Shown piece after piece: positions 8,851 to 39,795 of a stretch of DNA of 39,795 nucleotides. The notes beneath the pieces were generated by a model. It was not told where the DNA came from, searched no databases, and saw only the letters and a program-made list of their open reading frames with translations. The number at the start of each line of letters is the position of its first letter. The first letter of the stretch is position 1. This DNA is from Candidatus Zhuqueibacterota bacterium. GTDB lineage: Bacteria > Zhuqueibacterota > Zhuqueibacteria > Residuimicrobiales > Krinioviventaceae. The stretch spans positions 1 to 39,795 of the forward strand of contig JAFGJB010000030.1 of assembly GCA_016929295.1 (NCBI GenBank), read 5' to 3'. Both the position numbers and the translations under genes were made by a program.

Positions 8851-9909
8851 ATGACCATTACAGTAGCAGAGATCGCCAAATGGATTGATGCGACGGTCGA
8901 GGGTGATGATTCTATGCAAATAACCGGATTGGCCAAGATCGAACACGCGAAATCCGGTCAGCTCTCCTTTATTGCGAATCCAAAGTACATCAAATATGGC
9001 GAGACCACGGAGGCATCCGCGCTCCTGGTGAATGAGGATTATCCGAAATCCACCAGGACATTGCTGCGGTCAAAAAATCCCTATTTCGCCTTTCTCAAAC
9101 TGGCGCAACGATTCTATCAGCAGGCGCCGCAGATCGAACCGGGCATCCATGAGACGGCTTGTATTGGCGAGAACGTCACTCTGGGCGACGACATCGCCAT
9201 CGGGCCCTATGTCTTCATCGGCGCAGACAGCAAAATTGGCGACCGGACGGTGATCTATCCCGGCGTTTTCATCGGCAGTCGGGTGGAAATCGGCAATGAC
9301 TGCACGATTTATCCCCATGTGTCAATTCGCGAAGAGTGCAAAATTGGTCATCAATGCATTCTTCACATGGGAGCGGTCATCGGTTCGGATGGTTTTGGCT
9401 ATGCTTTTGAAAATGGCGTTTTCAACAAACTGCCGCAGATGGGCATCGTCGTCCTGGAAGACAATGTCGAGATCGGGGCGAATACGACGATCGATCGCGC
9501 GACGATGGGGGAGACCCTGATCAAAAAAGGCGCCAAACTGGATAACCTCATACAAATTGCCCACAACGTGGAGATCGGACAGCATTCCGCTCTGGCTGCG
9601 CAGTCCGGCATATCCGGCAGCACCAAAGTGGGCGATTACGTGCAGGTGGGCGGGCAAGCCGGTTTTGTCGGCCATATCACCATCGGCGACCGTGCGAAGA
9701 TTGGCGCCCAGGGCGGCGTCACAAAATCCGTCCCCGAAGGCGAATTCTATACCGGCTATCCGGCGCGGCCGTTCCGAACGGAGATGCGAGAGCTCGCCAG
9801 TTTGGTCAAATTGCCCGATTTGATGCGACGATTCAAGCAGCTGGAACAAAAAATCGCAGAGTTGGAAGCAAGGATCAAAGAACTCTCTGAAAAAAGCAAC
9901 TCGTTGTGA
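8851..9909 (+). CDS. lpxD: UDP-3-O-acylglucosamine N-acyltransferase
   Basis: Third step of lipid A synthesis: N-acylation of UDP-3-O-acyl-glucosamine by an acyl-ACP. The 352-residue protein has the N-terminal LpxD domain (about 1-100; GLAKIEHAKSGQLSFIANPKY). A left-handed beta-helix of hexapeptide repeats follows (about 105-310), containing the catalytic-type His in LIQIAHNVEIG. It ends in a C-terminal helix (about 325-350) as in LpxD trimers. AGGA lies seven bases before ATG 8851. The gene is directly followed by lpxC-fabZ and lpxA. Confidence 0.97.
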   Translation: MTITVAEIAKWIDATVEGDDSMQITGLAKIEHAKSGQLSFIANPKYIKYGETTEASALLVNEDYPKSTRTLLRSKNPYFAFLKLAQRFYQQAPQIEPGIHETACIGENVTLGDDIAIGPYVFIGADSKIGDRTVIYPGVFIGSRVEIGNDCTIYPHVSIREECKIGHQCILHMGAVIGSDGFGYAFENGVFNKLPQMGIVVLEDNVEIGANTTIDRATMGETLIKKGAKLDNLIQIAHNVEIGQHSALAAQSGISGSTKVGDYVQVGGQAGFVGHITIGDRAKIGAQGGVTKSVPEGEFYTGYPARPFRTEMRELASLVKLPDLMRRFKQLEQKIAELEARIKELSEKSNSL

Positions 9910-9922
9910 GGAGGTCTTTCTG
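9909..9922 (+). promoter_or_regulatory. Strong ribosome binding site with CTG start for lpxC-fabZ
   Basis: AGGAGG at 9909-9914 is followed by five bases and CTG at 9920. No ATG, GTG or TTG lies in frame near this site. This positions translation initiation at a non-standard CTG codon. Confidence 0.75.
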
Positions 9923-11320
9923 AAAAATCAACAGACGATCAAGGAAGTCGCATCCTACTCCGGCGTCGGCTTGCATACCGGCAACAAGACATCAATAAGA
10001 TTTAAACCCGCTCCCGTGAACACCGGCATTATCTTCAAGAGAGTGGATATTCCCGACTCTCCCGAGATAAAAGCGGATATCGAGCATGTGCTGGACATCT
10101 CGCGGGGCACGACCATCGGTATTGGCGACGTCAAAATTCATACAGTTGAACATGTGCTAGCCGCGATCAGCGGGCTTGAAATTGATAACATCATCTGCGA
10201 GGTCGAAGGAAACGAACCCCCCGTCGGTGACGGCAGCGCGCTGCCTTTTGTCGAGGTGCTGCTGAAGGCGGGCCTGATCGAGCAGGAGGCGCTGCGCGAT
10301 TATCTCATCATCGACAAGACAATCACCTATTCTGATCCGAGCAAGGGCATCGACATCGTCGTCTTTCCGTCGGATGAGTTTCGCATCACTTTCATGGTTG
10401 ACTATCGGAATCCGGCGCTCGGCACGCAATATACGTCCATGTACTCCATGCAGGAAGAGTTTGCCACCGAGTTTGCGGCGGCCCGCACGTTCTGTTTTCT
10501 GCATGAAGTGGAGGAGCTGTGGAAGGCTGGACTCATACAGGGCGGCAATATTGATAACGCGCTCGTCATCATTGACCGTGAAATGGACGACCAGGAGATC
10601 GATGATTTGCGCAAACTGTTCGGAATCGATCAGAATGTGCACCTCTCGGCCAACGGCATTTTGAATGGCAAGGAGCTGCGCTACTATAATGAACCGGTGC
10701 GTCACAAGGCTCTGGATCTGATCGGCGATCTCGCCCTGCTCGGCGTGCCGATCAAAGCGCATGTCATGGCGGCGCGCTCCGGTCACGGCGCCAATGCGGA
10801 GCTGGTGAAACTGATCCGCAAGGAATATGAAAAAAAACTCATCCGCAAAAAATTTCAGTCCGATCCATCCAAGGGAGCATTTCTCGACGCGGAAGCCATC
10901 ACCAGGATATTGCCGCACCGCTATCCGTTCCTGCTCGTCGACAAGATCATGGATCTCGTGCCTGGAGAGCATGTCGTGGGCATCAAGAATGTGACGATCA
11001 ACGAGCCGTTTTTTCAAGGACACTTTCCCGGCCGCCCCATTATGCCGGGCGTGCTCATCATTGAGGCGATGGCCCAGGTGGGGGGTATTTTGCTGCTCAA
11101 CGCCGAAAGCGAACCGGAAGAAAAGTATGTTGTTTTCACCGGCCTGGACAATGTGCGCTTTCGTCGCATGGTTTTTCCCGGCGACTCGATCCGCTTCGAG
11201 CTGGAGATGGGCGCCTTGCGGCGTTCCATGGCCAAGATGTACGGTCGTGCGTACGTGGGTGATCAGCTGGCGTGCGAAGCCGAATTGATGGCCGCCATCG
11301 TTGACCGGACAAAAGCCTGA
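9920..11320 (+). CDS. lpxC-fabZ: Bifunctional UDP-3-O-acyl-GlcNAc deacetylase / 3-hydroxyacyl-ACP dehydratase
   Basis: A 466-residue fusion of the committed lipid A enzyme with a fatty-acid dehydratase, as known in Bacteroidota and relatives. LpxC part (about 1-310): zinc ligands His78 (TVEHVLAA), His262 and Asp266 (RHKALDLIGD), and catalytic His289 (SGHGAN). FabZ part (about 320-460): HRYPFLLVD, then catalytic His368 (GHFPGRPIMPG) and Glu382 (IIEAMAQ), the family spacing of 14. The start is unusual. Conserved LpxC N-terminal sequence (QTIKEVASYSGVGLHTG) precedes the first conventional codon, TTG 9971. The only credible in-frame start is CTG 9920, five bases after a perfect AGGAGG (9909-9914). 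The fusion may coordinate 3-hydroxyacyl-ACP use between lipid A and phospholipids. Confidence 0.96.
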   Translation: MKNQQTIKEVASYSGVGLHTGNKTSIRFKPAPVNTGIIFKRVDIPDSPEIKADIEHVLDISRGTTIGIGDVKIHTVEHVLAAISGLEIDNIICEVEGNEPPVGDGSALPFVEVLLKAGLIEQEALRDYLIIDKTITYSDPSKGIDIVVFPSDEFRITFMVDYRNPALGTQYTSMYSMQEEFATEFAAARTFCFLHEVEELWKAGLIQGGNIDNALVIIDREMDDQEIDDLRKLFGIDQNVHLSANGILNGKELRYYNEPVRHKALDLIGDLALLGVPIKAHVMAARSGHGANAELVKLIRKEYEKKLIRKKFQSDPSKGAFLDAEAITRILPHRYPFLLVDKIMDLVPGEHVVGIKNVTINEPFFQGHFPGRPIMPGVLIIEAMAQVGGILLLNAESEPEEKYVVFTGLDNVRFRRMVFPGDSIRFELEMGALRRSMAKMYGRAYVGDQLACEAELMAAIVDRTKA

Positions 11321-14183: not shown

Positions 14184-15263
14184 ATGGAAAATATCTGGCA
14201 TATAGTCGTATCTTATGGAATTCCCTTCATTTTCACTCTGGGTTTGCTGGTGCTCGTGCATGAGCTGGGCCATTTTGCCCTGGCAAAACTGGTTGGCATT
14301 CGTGTCGAAAGATTTTCCGTCGGCTTTCCACCCCGATTGTTCGGCAAAAAGATCGGGGATACGGATTATTGCGTCTCCGCTGTACCGATCGGCGGCTATG
14401 TGAAAATGTCCGGCATGATCGATGAGAGCATGGACGAAGGTTCAATCAAGGGAGAGCCGTGGGAATTCATGTCAAAGCCGCTCTGGGCGAGATTTTTAGT
14501 CATTTTTGCCGGACCGGCATTTAATATTTTGCTGGCTGTTGTGATCTATACGGGAATTATCATGATCAGCGGCATTGCTGTGACGGCCGATCCCATCTAT
14601 GCGGTCGTTGGCAGCGTGATGCCGGACACACCGGCTGAATCGATCGGGCTGCAAACCGGCGATCGGATCACGCGGGTCAATGGTCAGCCTGTGGAAATGT
14701 GGCAGGATCTCATTGCCATCATCCACAAAATGCCTGAGCAGGAGATCCAGGTCGAATGGGAGCGTCAGGGCGAGGCGATGTCCGCTCGAGTGATCACCCT
14801 GAAAGATCCGCTGCAGGAGATCGGACTCATTGGCATTGGTCCTGTCACGACAATGGAAAAAGTGGGCGTGTTCAAGTCTTTTTGGTACGGGACGATCAAC
14901 ACGGTCGACAAGACAGCGATGATTTTCAAATCTTTTGGCCTGCTCTTCAGTGGCAAGGTCGCGGCAAAAGAAGCCTTGGCCGGGCCCATCAAGATCGCCG
15001 AGATGACCGGCCAGGTTGCCGAGCGCGGTTTCATCGCGCTGCTCTCGTTTGCGGCCATACTGAGCATCAACCTGGGACTCCTGAATCTGCTGCCCATCCC
15101 GGTGCTGGATGGCGGTCACATCGTGCTCCTCTCCATCGAAGGCATCACCCGTCGACCAATTTCGACAAAAATAAAAATGGCCGTTCAGCAGGTGGGGATG
15201 GCGCTTTTGTTAGCGCTCATGGTCTTCGTCATTATCAATGACGTCCTGCGAATCGGTCACTAA
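14184..15263 (+). CDS. rseP: RseP-family site-2 zinc metalloprotease
   Basis: Intramembrane protease that cleaves anti-sigma factors or signal-peptide remnants within the inner membrane. The 359-residue product has a first membrane helix containing HELGH at residues 26-30, where two His and one Glu form the zinc site. A periplasmic PDZ domain follows (about 130-215; GDRITRVNGQPVEMWQDL). The second catalytic motif LLPIPVLDGGH is near residue 305, and a last membrane helix is near 335-355. Only one PDZ domain is evident, against two in E. coli RseP. The gene closes the uppS-to-rseP cluster; 18 bases separate its stop from the start codon-proximal end of a terminator region. Confidence 0.95.
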   Translation: MENIWHIVVSYGIPFIFTLGLLVLVHELGHFALAKLVGIRVERFSVGFPPRLFGKKIGDTDYCVSAVPIGGYVKMSGMIDESMDEGSIKGEPWEFMSKPLWARFLVIFAGPAFNILLAVVIYTGIIMISGIAVTADPIYAVVGSVMPDTPAESIGLQTGDRITRVNGQPVEMWQDLIAIIHKMPEQEIQVEWERQGEAMSARVITLKDPLQEIGLIGIGPVTTMEKVGVFKSFWYGTINTVDKTAMIFKSFGLLFSGKVAAKEALAGPIKIAEMTGQVAERGFIALLSFAAILSINLGLLNLLPIPVLDGGHIVLLSIEGITRRPISTKIKMAVQQVGMALLLALMVFVIINDVLRIGH

Positions 15264-15327: not shown

Positions 15328-15358
15328 TTGACTGTCGATGAAATATATGCTATTTTTG
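15328..15358 (+). promoter_or_regulatory. Predicted promoter of the gcvT unit
   Basis: TTG at 15328-15330, a 20-base spacer and TATTTTTG at 15351-15358, a full match to TAnnTTTG. The same site also reads as TTGACT-17-TATTTT, a fair sigma70 promoter. It lies after the rseP terminator and upstream of the palindromic repeat that forms the leader of gcvT. Confidence 0.6.
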
Positions 15359-15396
15359 CATGTCGGAATTTTTCTAGTCCGGCCAAAGTTTGCGTT

Positions 15397-15502
15397 AATC
15401 CCGACAAGGGGCAGCTCGAATACGCAAGAGATGGTCGAAAGTAAATTAATTTCAATTACTTGGAATGTTTCGCGATTCCAGGCCACCCCTTGTTGGGCGC
15501 CA
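15397..15502 (+). repeat. Palindromic intergenic repeat element, complete copy (structured leader upstream of gcvT)
   Basis: The left arm CCCGACAAGGGG (15400-15411) is complementary to CCCCTTGTTGGG (15486-15497) over 12 bp, with one G-T pair. Interrupted complementarity continues inward to about 15425 and 15472. The interior contains a nested hairpin, AAGTAA (15439-15444) with TTACTT (15456-15461). A related sequence lies at the right edge of the window (39728-39795). As RNA it would form a long stem 40 bases after the promoter and 42 bases before the gcvT start. No protein is encoded. Possible identities are a MITE, a dispersed palindromic repeat or a structured regulatory RNA. Confidence 0.75.
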
Positions 15503-15544
15503 AACAATTGATGGCCGCATTAATAACGCCAGAGGAATGCGATC

Positions 15545-16642
15545 GTGAGTCTCAAAAAAACAGCGTTCTACGAAATCCATCAACAACTGGGCGCGAAACT
15601 GGTGGAATTCGCCGGCTACCTCATGCCCGTACAGTATGCCGGGATAAAGCAGGAGCATAAAAGAGTTCGTTCGACCGTCGGACTATTCGATGTGTCGCAC
15701 ATGGGTGAGTTCATCATTCGCGGCGACAACGCCCTGGCGTTCCTGCAGCACATGACAATCAATGACGTCAGCAAGCTGGCTGTTGATCAGGTGCAATATT
15801 CTGCCATGTGCTATGAAAATGGCGGCCTAGTGGACGATCTCCTGGTGTATCGTCTGGCTGATCACTATATGGTCGTGGTGAATGCGGCGAATCTCGATAA
15901 AGATTGGGCGTGGATGCAGAAACATCTTACACCGGAGGTTGAATTGATCAACCGGACGGACGAGCTCTCCCTGTTGGCTCTGCAGGGTCCACAGGCGGAG
16001 CCAACCCTGGCAAAGCTGACCGATCTGCATCTGAACGATATACCCTATTATTGGCTCAAAGTGGGGAACGTCAGCGGTGTGGAAATGATCGTTTCTCGAA
16101 CGGGCTACACGGGTGAGCCGGGTTTCGAGCTCTGCTTTAGCGTTGCACATTCGGAGATGATTTGGCAGGCGCTCATGCAGGCGGGCGCTGAATTCCATAT
16201 CGAACCGATCGGATTGGGTGCGCGCGACACGCTGCGTCTGGAAATGAAATATTGCCTCTATGGCCACGATATCGACGAGACGACGAATCCGCTTGAAGCG
16301 GGCCTTGGCTGGATCACCCGGCTCGACAAAGGTGATTTCATTGGCAAGAGCGCCATCCAAAAAGTGAAAGAGCACGGTCCGACGCGCAAGCTTGTGGGCT
16401 TTGAGATGATCGAGGAGGCTTTTCCGCGTCAGGGCTATATCATCTGGCAAGGAGAGCGTGAGCTCGGCCATGTGACGAGCGGCACCTATTCTCCCATGCT
16501 GGAAAAAGGCATCGGCACGGGCTATGTCGCTGCTGACGTAGCAACCGTCGGCGCCGATATTCAAATCGATGTGCGCGGCAAAAAAGTCGCGGCGCGCATT
16601 GTCAAAACTCCATTTTATCACAAAAACAGCACGCACGGATGA
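15545..16642 (+). CDS. gcvT: Glycine cleavage system T protein (aminomethyltransferase)
   Basis: Transfers the methylene group from aminomethylated, lipoyl-bound GcvH to tetrahydrofolate, releasing ammonia. The 365-residue protein has GLFDVSHMGEF, the catalytic-region Asp in NGGLVDDLLVYRL, SRTGYTGEPGFE and GLGARDTLRLEMKYCLYGHDI. The C-terminal barrel contains RKLVGFEM and GHVTSGTYSPMLEKGIGTGYV. These are GcvT rather than YgfZ features. The GTG start at 15545 follows GAGGA by about nine bases. No gcvH or gcvP is visible here. Its stop overlaps the next gene as ATGA. Confidence 0.96.
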   Translation: MSLKKTAFYEIHQQLGAKLVEFAGYLMPVQYAGIKQEHKRVRSTVGLFDVSHMGEFIIRGDNALAFLQHMTINDVSKLAVDQVQYSAMCYENGGLVDDLLVYRLADHYMVVVNAANLDKDWAWMQKHLTPEVELINRTDELSLLALQGPQAEPTLAKLTDLHLNDIPYYWLKVGNVSGVEMIVSRTGYTGEPGFELCFSVAHSEMIWQALMQAGAEFHIEPIGLGARDTLRLEMKYCLYGHDIDETTNPLEAGLGWITRLDKGDFIGKSAIQKVKEHGPTRKLVGFEMIEEAFPRQGYIIWQGERELGHVTSGTYSPMLEKGIGTGYVAADVATVGADIQIDVRGKKVAARIVKTPFYHKNSTHG

Positions 16643-36752: not shown

Positions 36753-39623
36753 TTGGCATCGACACCGTTTGATATTTGCGTTCTGACAGCGGCCAACGAC
36801 AGGCAGGCGCGCGGTTTTGACATTCAGCTCGACTGGCGCCGTCAGGAGGCGGATCTCTCGGCAACCGCTTTCAGGATTATCGCGGATCCGCAGGGGAGAC
36901 GCATCGGCTCCGGCGGCAGCACCTTTCTGGTGCTGCATGCCTTGTACGAGGAATTCGGCGAGTCGCTTTATGCGAAACGAGTGCTCATTCTGCACAGTGG
37001 CGGCGATAGCCGTCGTACTCCCGCCTATTCCGCCGTCGGCAAGATTTTCATGCCGCTGCCGACGGAAAAGCATCGCACCCTCTTCGATGTCATGCTCGAG
37101 TACTATTCGCAGCTGCCCAATGCGTCCACCGGTCAGGTCATCATCGCCAGCGGCGATGTGCTGCTCAATTTTGATCCCTCTTTCATCGCCTTTTCGCCCA
37201 CCGGCATCACCGGCGTCGCTTTTCCGGAACAGCCGGAGGAAGGCGCCTATTTCGGCGTCTATGTCCCGGCGGAAACCCGCGCGGGCTTTGTCGATGCTGT
37301 CAACATCCTGCAAAAGCCGGATATCGCCCGGCTGCAAGAGCAGCACGCCATTGATGACAACCGGCGAATCTGGCTCGACACCGGCATCTTGCATCTGGCG
37401 CCGGATGCGGCCAGAACGTGGCTGGCGTGCAAGACCTTGATCGCGGCGGCGCAAAAAGGGGCCATCAACTATAATCTCTATCATGAAATACTGTATGCGG
37501 TCCATGGCAAAATGGACATTGAAAATTCGACGCAGCTGAAGAGTCTGTCACTGTTCGTCAATTGCCTTCCCTATTGCGGATTTTACCATATCGGCAGGAG
37601 CAGGGAGCTGTTGCAGAATTTCTACTCCCTGACGCATGCTGCGGCGCACTATCATTTTAAAAATTCAACTCGTTCCAATGCGGCGCTGTTGCCGGAATTG
37701 AAATCGATATGGGTTTACAATTCCGTTTTATCCGCCCGGCGTTTGTCGGTCAGCAAGCCCTGTCTGATCGAGGGCTGCGCCATTCAACGCGATCTGCAGC
37801 TGGACGGTCACAATATTTTGACCAATATCCCCGCCGAATCGTCGGCGATTCATCTGCTGCCAGGGATGTGCCTCACCGTTCTGCCGCTGGTGGACGGGGA
37901 TTGGGTCGCTGTCCTCTATGGCATCGATGATCAGTTCAAGGGAGAGGATGTTACTTTTTTGAACGCGCCGTTCACCTCTTTTTTGCGTGATCGAGGGATA
38001 GCAGAAGAAGAGCTGTGGTCGCCGGGCGAGGTGGACATCTGGGCGGCGCGACTTTTCCCTCGTTCGACATCGCCTGCTGTCGCCATGGCGACTGTATTGT
38101 TGTTGCAGGATCGTCAAGACCTGTCGCCGTGGCGATCGTCACAGCGGCTGTCGATGCAGGAGATCCTGCAGAATGTCGATCAGAATCGCCTGCTCGAACA
38201 TCGCGCCGGCCTCGAGCGTGACTGTCGTTTCCTCACTTTGAACGAGCAGTTGACCCGCGCTGATTTCGGCTATTCTTCTTTGACGGCGCTCTTGCGCTCG
38301 CCGGCGGACAGGAAAATCGCGCGCGATCAACTCATGCTCCAGCTGCAAAAGTCGTCCTCTACGGCGCTGGCGGCCCGCCTGCAGTTCTGGCTCGCTCAGC
38401 TCTATCGAGATGAGGGTGATGAGCAGCAAGCGGAACGCTATTTCGATTCGTCATTTGCGTCGATTCGTCGCGCCGTCGCCAGCGGTCTCCGAGAGTCCAA
38501 AAGCGCCTCGCCGCGCTACGGCATCCGTTCCGATGAGGTCGTGTGGACCATGTTGCCGGCGCGACTGGATTTCGCCGGCGGCTGGACAGATACGCCGCCA
38601 ATTTGTCTTGAGCAGGGGGGATGTGTGCTCAATGCTTCGGTCACGCTCAACGGCCAGTATCCCATTCAGGTCGTCGGCAAACTTTTGCCGGACGCTGTCA
38701 TTGGCATCAATTCGATCGATCTGGGCCGCCGGTCAACCATCAAAACCCGGGCCGAATTGGCGGACTATGCCAATCCGGCGGACTGGCTGTCACTGCCAAA
38801 AGCCGCCTTTTATGCTGCCGGTGTGTGCGACGGCAGCGACGACAGTCTGCAGCAGGTGCTTGAAAGAATGGGCGGCGGCATCGATTTGACCCTGTTCAGC
38901 GCCCTGCCGGCCGGCTCCGGCCTGGGAACGTCCAGTATTTTAGGCGCCGGACTCATTGCGACGCTGACGCGCATGCTGGGGAGAGATATTTCGCGCGACG
39001 AGCTCTATGCCCGAACGAGCAATCTGGAGCAGCTGATGACTACCGGTGGCGGCTGGCAGGACCAGATCGGCGGCGTGGCCGGTGGCGTCAAATTGATCAC
39101 CACAACGGCCGGCGCCGACCAGGCGCCCTCCATCGCCTGGACGAGCTTGACCGCCCCGGGGGCGGAGATGCGCGAACGCTTTCTTCTCTATTACACCGGC
39201 ATTCGCAGAATGGCGAAAAACTTGCTCCGGCATGTCGTCGGCCGCTATCTGAACAGGGATGCTGAAGCGCTGGCTGCCCTGGATCAGCTGGCAGCGCTGG
39301 CGAAAGAGATGAAAGATGACCTCGACCATCGACGGTGTGAGGCGTTCGGTCAAAAAATTCGACTCGCCTGGACGCTCAACAAGATCCTGGATGCGGGTCA
39401 GACGACGGATGAGATAGAGAGCGTTCTTGCGCGCATCGATGACTATATGCTGGGCGCCAAATTGCTCGGCGCCGGCGGCGGCGGATTTCTTTTCATCTGC
39501 GCCAAAGACAGCACCGCTGCGGGGGCCATACGATCCGAACTGTCGCACCATCCGCCCAACGATCGCGCGCGCTTTTTTGATTTCGACATCGATGCCGTCG
39601 GCATGAAGATGTGCGTCTTGTAA
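36753..39623 (+). CDS. fkp: Bifunctional L-fucokinase / L-fucose-1-phosphate guanylyltransferase
   Basis: The 956-residue product matches the length of Bacteroides fragilis FKP (949), which converts free L-fucose to GDP-L-fucose. The N-terminal pyrophosphorylase domain has IGSGGSTFLVLHAL (near 50-64), LHSGGDSRRTPAYSAVGKIF and VIIASGDVLLNFD. A left-handed helix-like linker region lies around 350-430. The C-terminal GHMP kinase has PARLDFAGGWTDTPPIC (near 601-617), the ATP loop LPAGSGLGTSSILGAGL (near 717-733), QDQIGGVAGGVKL and LLGAGGGGFLFI. The TTG start follows AAGGGA by six bases. It ends the polysaccharide operon, implying fucose in the product. A related sugar (for example D-arabinose or heptose) cannot be excluded. 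Confidence 0.93.
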   Translation: MASTPFDICVLTAANDRQARGFDIQLDWRRQEADLSATAFRIIADPQGRRIGSGGSTFLVLHALYEEFGESLYAKRVLILHSGGDSRRTPAYSAVGKIFMPLPTEKHRTLFDVMLEYYSQLPNASTGQVIIASGDVLLNFDPSFIAFSPTGITGVAFPEQPEEGAYFGVYVPAETRAGFVDAVNILQKPDIARLQEQHAIDDNRRIWLDTGILHLAPDAARTWLACKTLIAAAQKGAINYNLYHEILYAVHGKMDIENSTQLKSLSLFVNCLPYCGFYHIGRSRELLQNFYSLTHAAAHYHFKNSTRSNAALLPELKSIWVYNSVLSARRLSVSKPCLIEGCAIQRDLQLDGHNILTNIPAESSAIHLLPGMCLTVLPLVDGDWVAVLYGIDDQFKGEDVTFLNAPFTSFLRDRGIAEEELWSPGEVDIWAARLFPRSTSPAVAMATVLLLQDRQDLSPWRSSQRLSMQEILQNVDQNRLLEHRAGLERDCRFLTLNEQLTRADFGYSSLTALLRSPADRKIARDQLMLQLQKSSSTALAARLQFWLAQLYRDEGDEQQAERYFDSSFASIRRAVASGLRESKSASPRYGIRSDEVVWTMLPARLDFAGGWTDTPPICLEQGGCVLNASVTLNGQYPIQVVGKLLPDAVIGINSIDLGRRSTIKTRAELADYANPADWLSLPKAAFYAAGVCDGSDDSLQQVLERMGGGIDLTLFSALPAGSGLGTSSILGAGLIATLTRMLGRDISRDELYARTSNLEQLMTTGGGWQDQIGGVAGGVKLITTTAGADQAPSIAWTSLTAPGAEMRERFLLYYTGIRRMAKNLLRHVVGRYLNRDAEALAALDQLAALAKEMKDDLDHRRCEAFGQKIRLAWTLNKILDAGQTTDEIESVLARIDDYMLGAKLLGAGGGGFLFICAKDSTAAGAIRSELSHHPPNDRARFFDFDIDAVGMKMCVL

Positions 39624-39648: not shown

Positions 39649-39727
39649 GTAATCGCGCAAAGCCGCAGACGCAAAGGAAAAAAATTAACAATTTACTAAT
39701 CCGACCATCTTTAGATTCACATTCATC

Positions 39728-39795
39728 CCAACAAGGGGTGGCTCGGATACGCTGGAGAATTGTTGCAAGTAAAATAATTTCAATTACTTCAAATA
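39728..39795 (+). repeat. Palindromic intergenic repeat element, second copy, cut by window end
   Basis: CCCAACAAGGGG (39730-39741) followed by TGGCTCGGATACGC matches the left arm of the element at 15400-15425, differing at a few positions. It also matches, in reverse complement, that element's right arm. The interior hairpin recurs: AAGTAA and TTACTT flank a near-identical 11-base loop, ending with AATTTCAATTACTT in both copies. The right arm would lie beyond the window. The remainder of the gap after fkp (39624-39727) is AT-rich and holds only the promoter candidate. Confidence 0.72.

Follow-up and report, generated by a model that had tools for sequence, protein, structure and literature searches.

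The palindrome upstream of the gcvT gene very likely belongs to a MITE (probability of about 0.92), a gene-less unit of 156 bp bounded by 12-bp terminal inverted repeats. This unit was presumably mobilised in trans by a TA-inserting transposase of the IS630/Tc1-mariner type and has spread in a genus of candidate division KSB1. The stretch of DNA analysed here (the window, 39,795 nucleotides) is contig C120 of a candidate division KSB1 genome of 4.34 Mb in 367 contigs, referred to below as the host genome. An earlier note on the window had offered a MITE, a REP-like element, an attC-like folded site or a new leader RNA as explanations for the palindrome. The first of these proved right: the unit is short and lacks a transposase gene, it carries terminal inverted repeats, its dispersed copies are of a fixed, uniform length, and its insertion is recorded by a 2-bp target duplication and by empty sites in the sister species. 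The family is new, but mobile DNA of this kind is well known from bacteria.

Searching the host genome with the palindrome yielded ten further places with E values of 2e-28 to 7e-12, including the second copy in the window. The genome therefore contains 11 copies, of which nine are complete or almost complete, and not just the two noticed before, although both of those are present. A covariance model based on an alignment of 12 copies recovered none beyond these 11; its partial match at 39760–39795 corresponds to copy 2. Because the unit is nearly palindromic, the copies were in mixed orientation in the first alignment. After orienting them, the similarity extended past the palindrome at 15397–15502 on both sides up to ends reading TTAATCYGGCCA and TGGCCGGATTAA, which form the 12-bp terminal inverted repeats. 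With both ends placed, 10 of the 12 copies were exactly 156 bp long, the exceptions being the gcvT copy (150 bp) and the copy on contig C332 (146 bp); this length leaves no room for any transposase gene. The elements start with TTAATC and end with GATTAA or near variants thereof and are flanked by TA at most sites, while some TA flanks and the outer repeat of copy 1 are degenerate. Pairwise identities among the copies ranged from 66 to 92%, the lowest values coming from the C332 copy. The left part of this copy (L009, G000:C332:37254-37399) is unrelated to the remaining ones, and it is therefore regarded as truncated or recombined. All copies are dispersed singly rather than arrayed.

Copy 1 extends from 15374 to 15523 on the minus strand of the consensus frame (TTAATCCGGCCATTAATTG...), as determined by alignment and boundary finding, and matched the covariance model with 141 bits. 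With its 150 bp, it is 6 bp shorter than the family length and lies between rseP, coding for a RIP metalloprotease (14184–15263, plus strand, NCBIfam TIGR00054), and gcvT, coding for an aminomethyltransferase (15545–16642, plus strand, NCBIfam TIGR00528), which starts 22 bp downstream of the element. The terminal inverted repeat representing the consensus left end is located at 15512–15523 (TTAATGCGGCCA on the minus strand), directly followed by TA at 15524–15525, and the opposite, degenerate repeat is found at 15374–15385 (CTAGTCCGGCCA, plus strand). Between them, positions 15400–15497 (without strand assignment) comprise a sub-terminal long stem, CCCGACAAGGGG / CCCCTTGTTGGG, and a central AAGTAA...TTACTT hairpin. 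This is the part that had been recognised previously, and its 12-bp arms (15400–15411 and 15486–15497) and the nested AAGTAA/TTACTT hairpin are both seen in the sequence. The palindrome at 15397–15502 is therefore real, but the alignment with the other copies shows it to form only the interior of a longer element.

Copy 2 occupies 39696–39795 (minus strand in the consensus frame) and is flanked by TA at 39694–39695. Its similarity to the palindrome had been correctly noticed (82% identity over 68 bases, E = 7e-12), but the copy begins at 39696 and not at 39728, since positions 39697–39795 are 96% identical to consensus positions 57–155 by blastn. Only 100 bp of the element are present, as the contig ends at window position 39795, inside the copy and near the element's centre; assembly breaks at dispersed or hairpin-forming repeats are usual. 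The gene upstream of copy 2 (36753–39623, plus strand) resembles those for fucokinase/fucose-1-phosphate guanylyltransferase, matching NF009948 under the curated cut-off.

The earlier note had also placed a promoter-like TTG-N20-TAnnTT box 5' of each copy. A strict box (TTG-N18-21-TAnnTTTG) occurs only at the gcvT copy, where TTG-N20-TATTTTTG is found at 15328–15358 on the plus strand, and copy 2 has only a loose form; neither form was found within 120 bp of the other 11 copies examined. The box at gcvT is conserved in the sister species, whose gcvT gene is preceded by TTGACTGTCG-TGAAATAT-TGCTATTTTTG and lacks the element, and it is therefore gcvT's own box and not a part of the element. As read from this comparison of the two sequences, copy 1 landed downstream of the conserved promoter-like box and ahead of the gcvT start codon, and it is probably transcribed within the gcvT 5' UTR, adding a hairpin of roughly 150 nt. 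An effect on gcvT, such as slower or RNase-processed mRNA, would, if there is any, be a by-product of the insertion.

By mechanical ORF calls, all copies appear to be intergenic. Some are overlapped by listed ORFs, which are candidates only and mostly run antisense to a longer frame nearby. Several copies are closely flanked on both sides by ORFs of one strand, with distances of 34 and 5 bp at L007 and 13 and 22 bp at L008. Such positions, together with the precedents of the Correia and ERIC elements (PMC2229807, PMC10969869), would agree with a MITE hairpin that was co-opted after insertion, e.g., as a site of RNase III processing or as a stability element of operon mRNAs. RNA-level effects of elements of the Correia and ERIC type have been reviewed (PMC2229807), and RNase III cleaves at Correia repeats (PMC10969869). 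However, the orthologous sites show no conservation, and the constraint on pairing does not exceed that of shuffled alignments (see below), so we consider co-option unlikely. We see even less reason to assume that the KSB1 genus has adopted the element as a mobile module for RNA processing or attenuation, whose copies in the gcvT leader and between genes of the same direction would tune their neighbours via the hairpin. Because conservation is absent, a regulatory role of single copies is unlikely to be general.

The position of copy 1 behind the box and the strong hairpin predicted for it might also point to a riboswitch or another structured leader RNA that controls gcvT and further genes. 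The 106-nt segment described in the earlier note folds with −39.6 kcal/mol (z = −4.3 vs. shuffles), but its opposite strand folds equally well (z = −4.2). The whole element folds end to end into a single hairpin, for which RNAalifold predicts 50 pairs with an unfavourable covariation term of +1.9. Only one of these 50 pairs showed compensatory changes; as many paired cells as observed, or more, occurred in 466 of 500 shuffles, and a covariation score as high as observed in 361 of 500. Pairing is retained at 91% across the copies because they are similar to each other, and it is what full-length inverted repeats bring anyway. Therefore, the arm differences kept as G-T pairs give no signal of the selection on structure they had seemed to hint at; because the base pairs show no covariation beyond that of shuffles, selection on an RNA structure is unsupported. 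The previous impression that the palindrome is no recognised riboswitch was borne out by the lack of an Rfam match. Moreover, copies are found at unrelated sites in either orientation, and the hairpin is not conserved at the orthologous gcvT gene, where the box stands without the element. A leader RNA is thus very improbable and largely refuted by the empty sites, and the idea that the gcvT leader palindrome is a new riboswitch can be dropped as a false lead.

Apart from the host, the sister species (G001) is the only one sampled in the genus, and both genomes are fragmented. It contains two full copies and one fragment, the full copies being located at sites different from those in the host genome. 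We used the joined flanks of six selected copies to find the homologous regions in the respective other one of the two species. The element was absent from these regions at five sites (L001, which is the gcvT copy, as well as L005, L007, L008 and L026), and the region homologous to L004 aligned poorly and was also without it. Measured with near anchors, the net insertion amounted to 158 bp at L008, 158 bp at L026 and 159 bp at L007, which is explained by a 156-bp element plus a 2-bp target duplication, with one additional 1-bp indel at L007. The duplicated bases are TA at L026, while L008 shows TG on either side of the element. Because TG/TG is a direct repeat, the TA at other sites is argued not to be a mere palindromic extension of the inverted repeats. 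The check for target-site duplications proposed in the earlier note therefore turned out positive, with a 2-bp duplication of TA and once of TG. 

The insertion lengths also bear on the type of transposase. The element ends can be read as TTAA...TTAA, as if the MITE had been moved by a TTAA-type (piggyBac/IS1380-like) transposase and the terminal TTAA were the target duplication. A 4-bp duplication predicts a net insertion of 156 bp, but none of the three sites shows this value, and the empty sites contain no TTAA, which makes such a transposase hardly credible. An attC-like or other single-strand-folded recombination site of the integron cassette type can practically be discarded: apart from a superficial CCCAAC / GTTGGG motif at the ends of the inner stem, it fits neither the single, dispersed copies without arrays nor the 2-bp duplication on insertion nor the true ends TTAATC/GATTAA. 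REP and RAYT elements are palindromes of 20–40 bp without target duplication, and a 156-bp unit with a 2-bp duplication does not fit this class.

The MITE family is, as far as the sequences searched allow to judge, restricted to the genus. In eight further genomes of the taxonomic family, the covariance model detected no copy, and blastn against 80 other genomes of the phylum revealed no full or half-length copy, the only hits being two AT-rich matches of 28–31 bases to the element centre. No copy was found in plasmids or phages, and the exact arm motif had no match in viral contigs. Among 84,980 species genomes, this motif was listed only for the sister KSB1 genome and one Lactobacillus MAG, with the host genome possibly omitted; the Lactobacillus match (L059) covers 22 bases only and was judged to be due to chance. 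The sister-species copy L026 is most similar to the gcvT copy (89%), more so than most pairs of copies within the same genome are to each other. Therefore, at least one subfamily probably predates the split of the two species, and the element would have spread within the genus around and after this split. L026 (940–960) was inserted into the TA of an apparent TAG stop codon, where the TTAA of the element provides a new in-frame TAA one codon further on (GTT TAT TAA); insertion into the stop codon would therefore cost only one extra residue.

We infer transposition of the IS630/Tc1-mariner type only from the TA duplication, the architecture of the element and the analogy to RUP, the repeat unit of pneumococcus, for which an IS630 partner was itself inferred (PMC2229807). 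Such a transposase would act on the MITE in trans and insert it at TA, presumably by a cut-and-paste mode. An autonomous parent with the ends of the element was not found in either of the fragmented genomes sampled from the genus, and no convergent TTAATCYGGCCA-type ends at a distance of 0.5–5 kb were detected in the host assembly with up to one mismatch (read by eye). The parent transposon may be located in unassembled parts or be extinct. Single matches to the 12-mer end are in excess in the host genome, and this excess is coding sequence at least in part; one such match, TTTAATCCGGCCACG, reads F-N-P-A-T in an apparent C-terminal sorting domain. With the DDE_3 and IS630 models, the only clear match in the genus was one pseudogene with four stops (C64:88-897). 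The stretch G000:C64:72-897 (L043) thus contains a degenerate transposase of the IS630 family with four in-frame stops. It is adjoined by TGACATGACACTAG, which is the end of intact IS630 elements in a relative from the same family (G009); these end in CTAGTGTCATGTCA, the complement of which lies at C64:72-85. Because of these different ends, the known IS630 of the family appears not to be the supplier of the element's ends. The known TTAATCYGGCCA ends can be used to seek the missing transposase.

By analogy, the element is expected to work like the RUP and Correia elements. Likened by description, RUP resembles it in size (about 100–160 bp), in having terminal inverted repeats and a TA target duplication, in hairpin formation and in intergenic location (PMC2229807). 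RUP is thought to be mobilised by IS630-Spn1 (PMC2229807) and differs by its length of 107 bp, its 108 copies in Streptococcus pneumoniae and an autonomous IS with similar ends, compared to 156 bp, 11 copies and no parent found in KSB1. The Correia/NEMIS elements of Neisseria, again likened by description, share a version of ~155 bp, terminal inverted repeats, TA ends and a long stem, and their RNA can be co-transcribed with neighbouring genes (PMC2229807), but they have 24-bp terminal repeats and an IHF site in the long form and occur in another phylum. The ERIC (IRU, RU-1) elements are 127-bp near-palindromes with TA ends that affect mRNAs when co-transcribed (PMC2229807; also by description), but they differ in length, have 7-bp terminal repeats and belong to enterobacteria. 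Our analysis adds a MITE family to an uncultured phylum, with ends and target duplication set by empty sites; the literature searched contained no MITE report from this phylum.

A further repeat may be present in both species. Between rseP and the promoter of gcvT, the sister genome carries a different extra segment of ~295 bp (G001:C158, L078, about 9661–9956), in which a CGCAGAGGGCGCAGAGGCACGCAGAG motif occurs. Both genomes are enriched in matches to GCAGAGGNNGCAGAG, with 35 in the host genome vs. 7 for the reversed pattern. The CGCAGAGGGCGCAGAGGCACGCAGAG/GCAGAGGNNGCAGAG matches may constitute another dispersed repeat family, and some may be coding. A similar stretch, GCCGCAGACGCAAAGG, adjoins copy 2 in the window at about 39662–39678.
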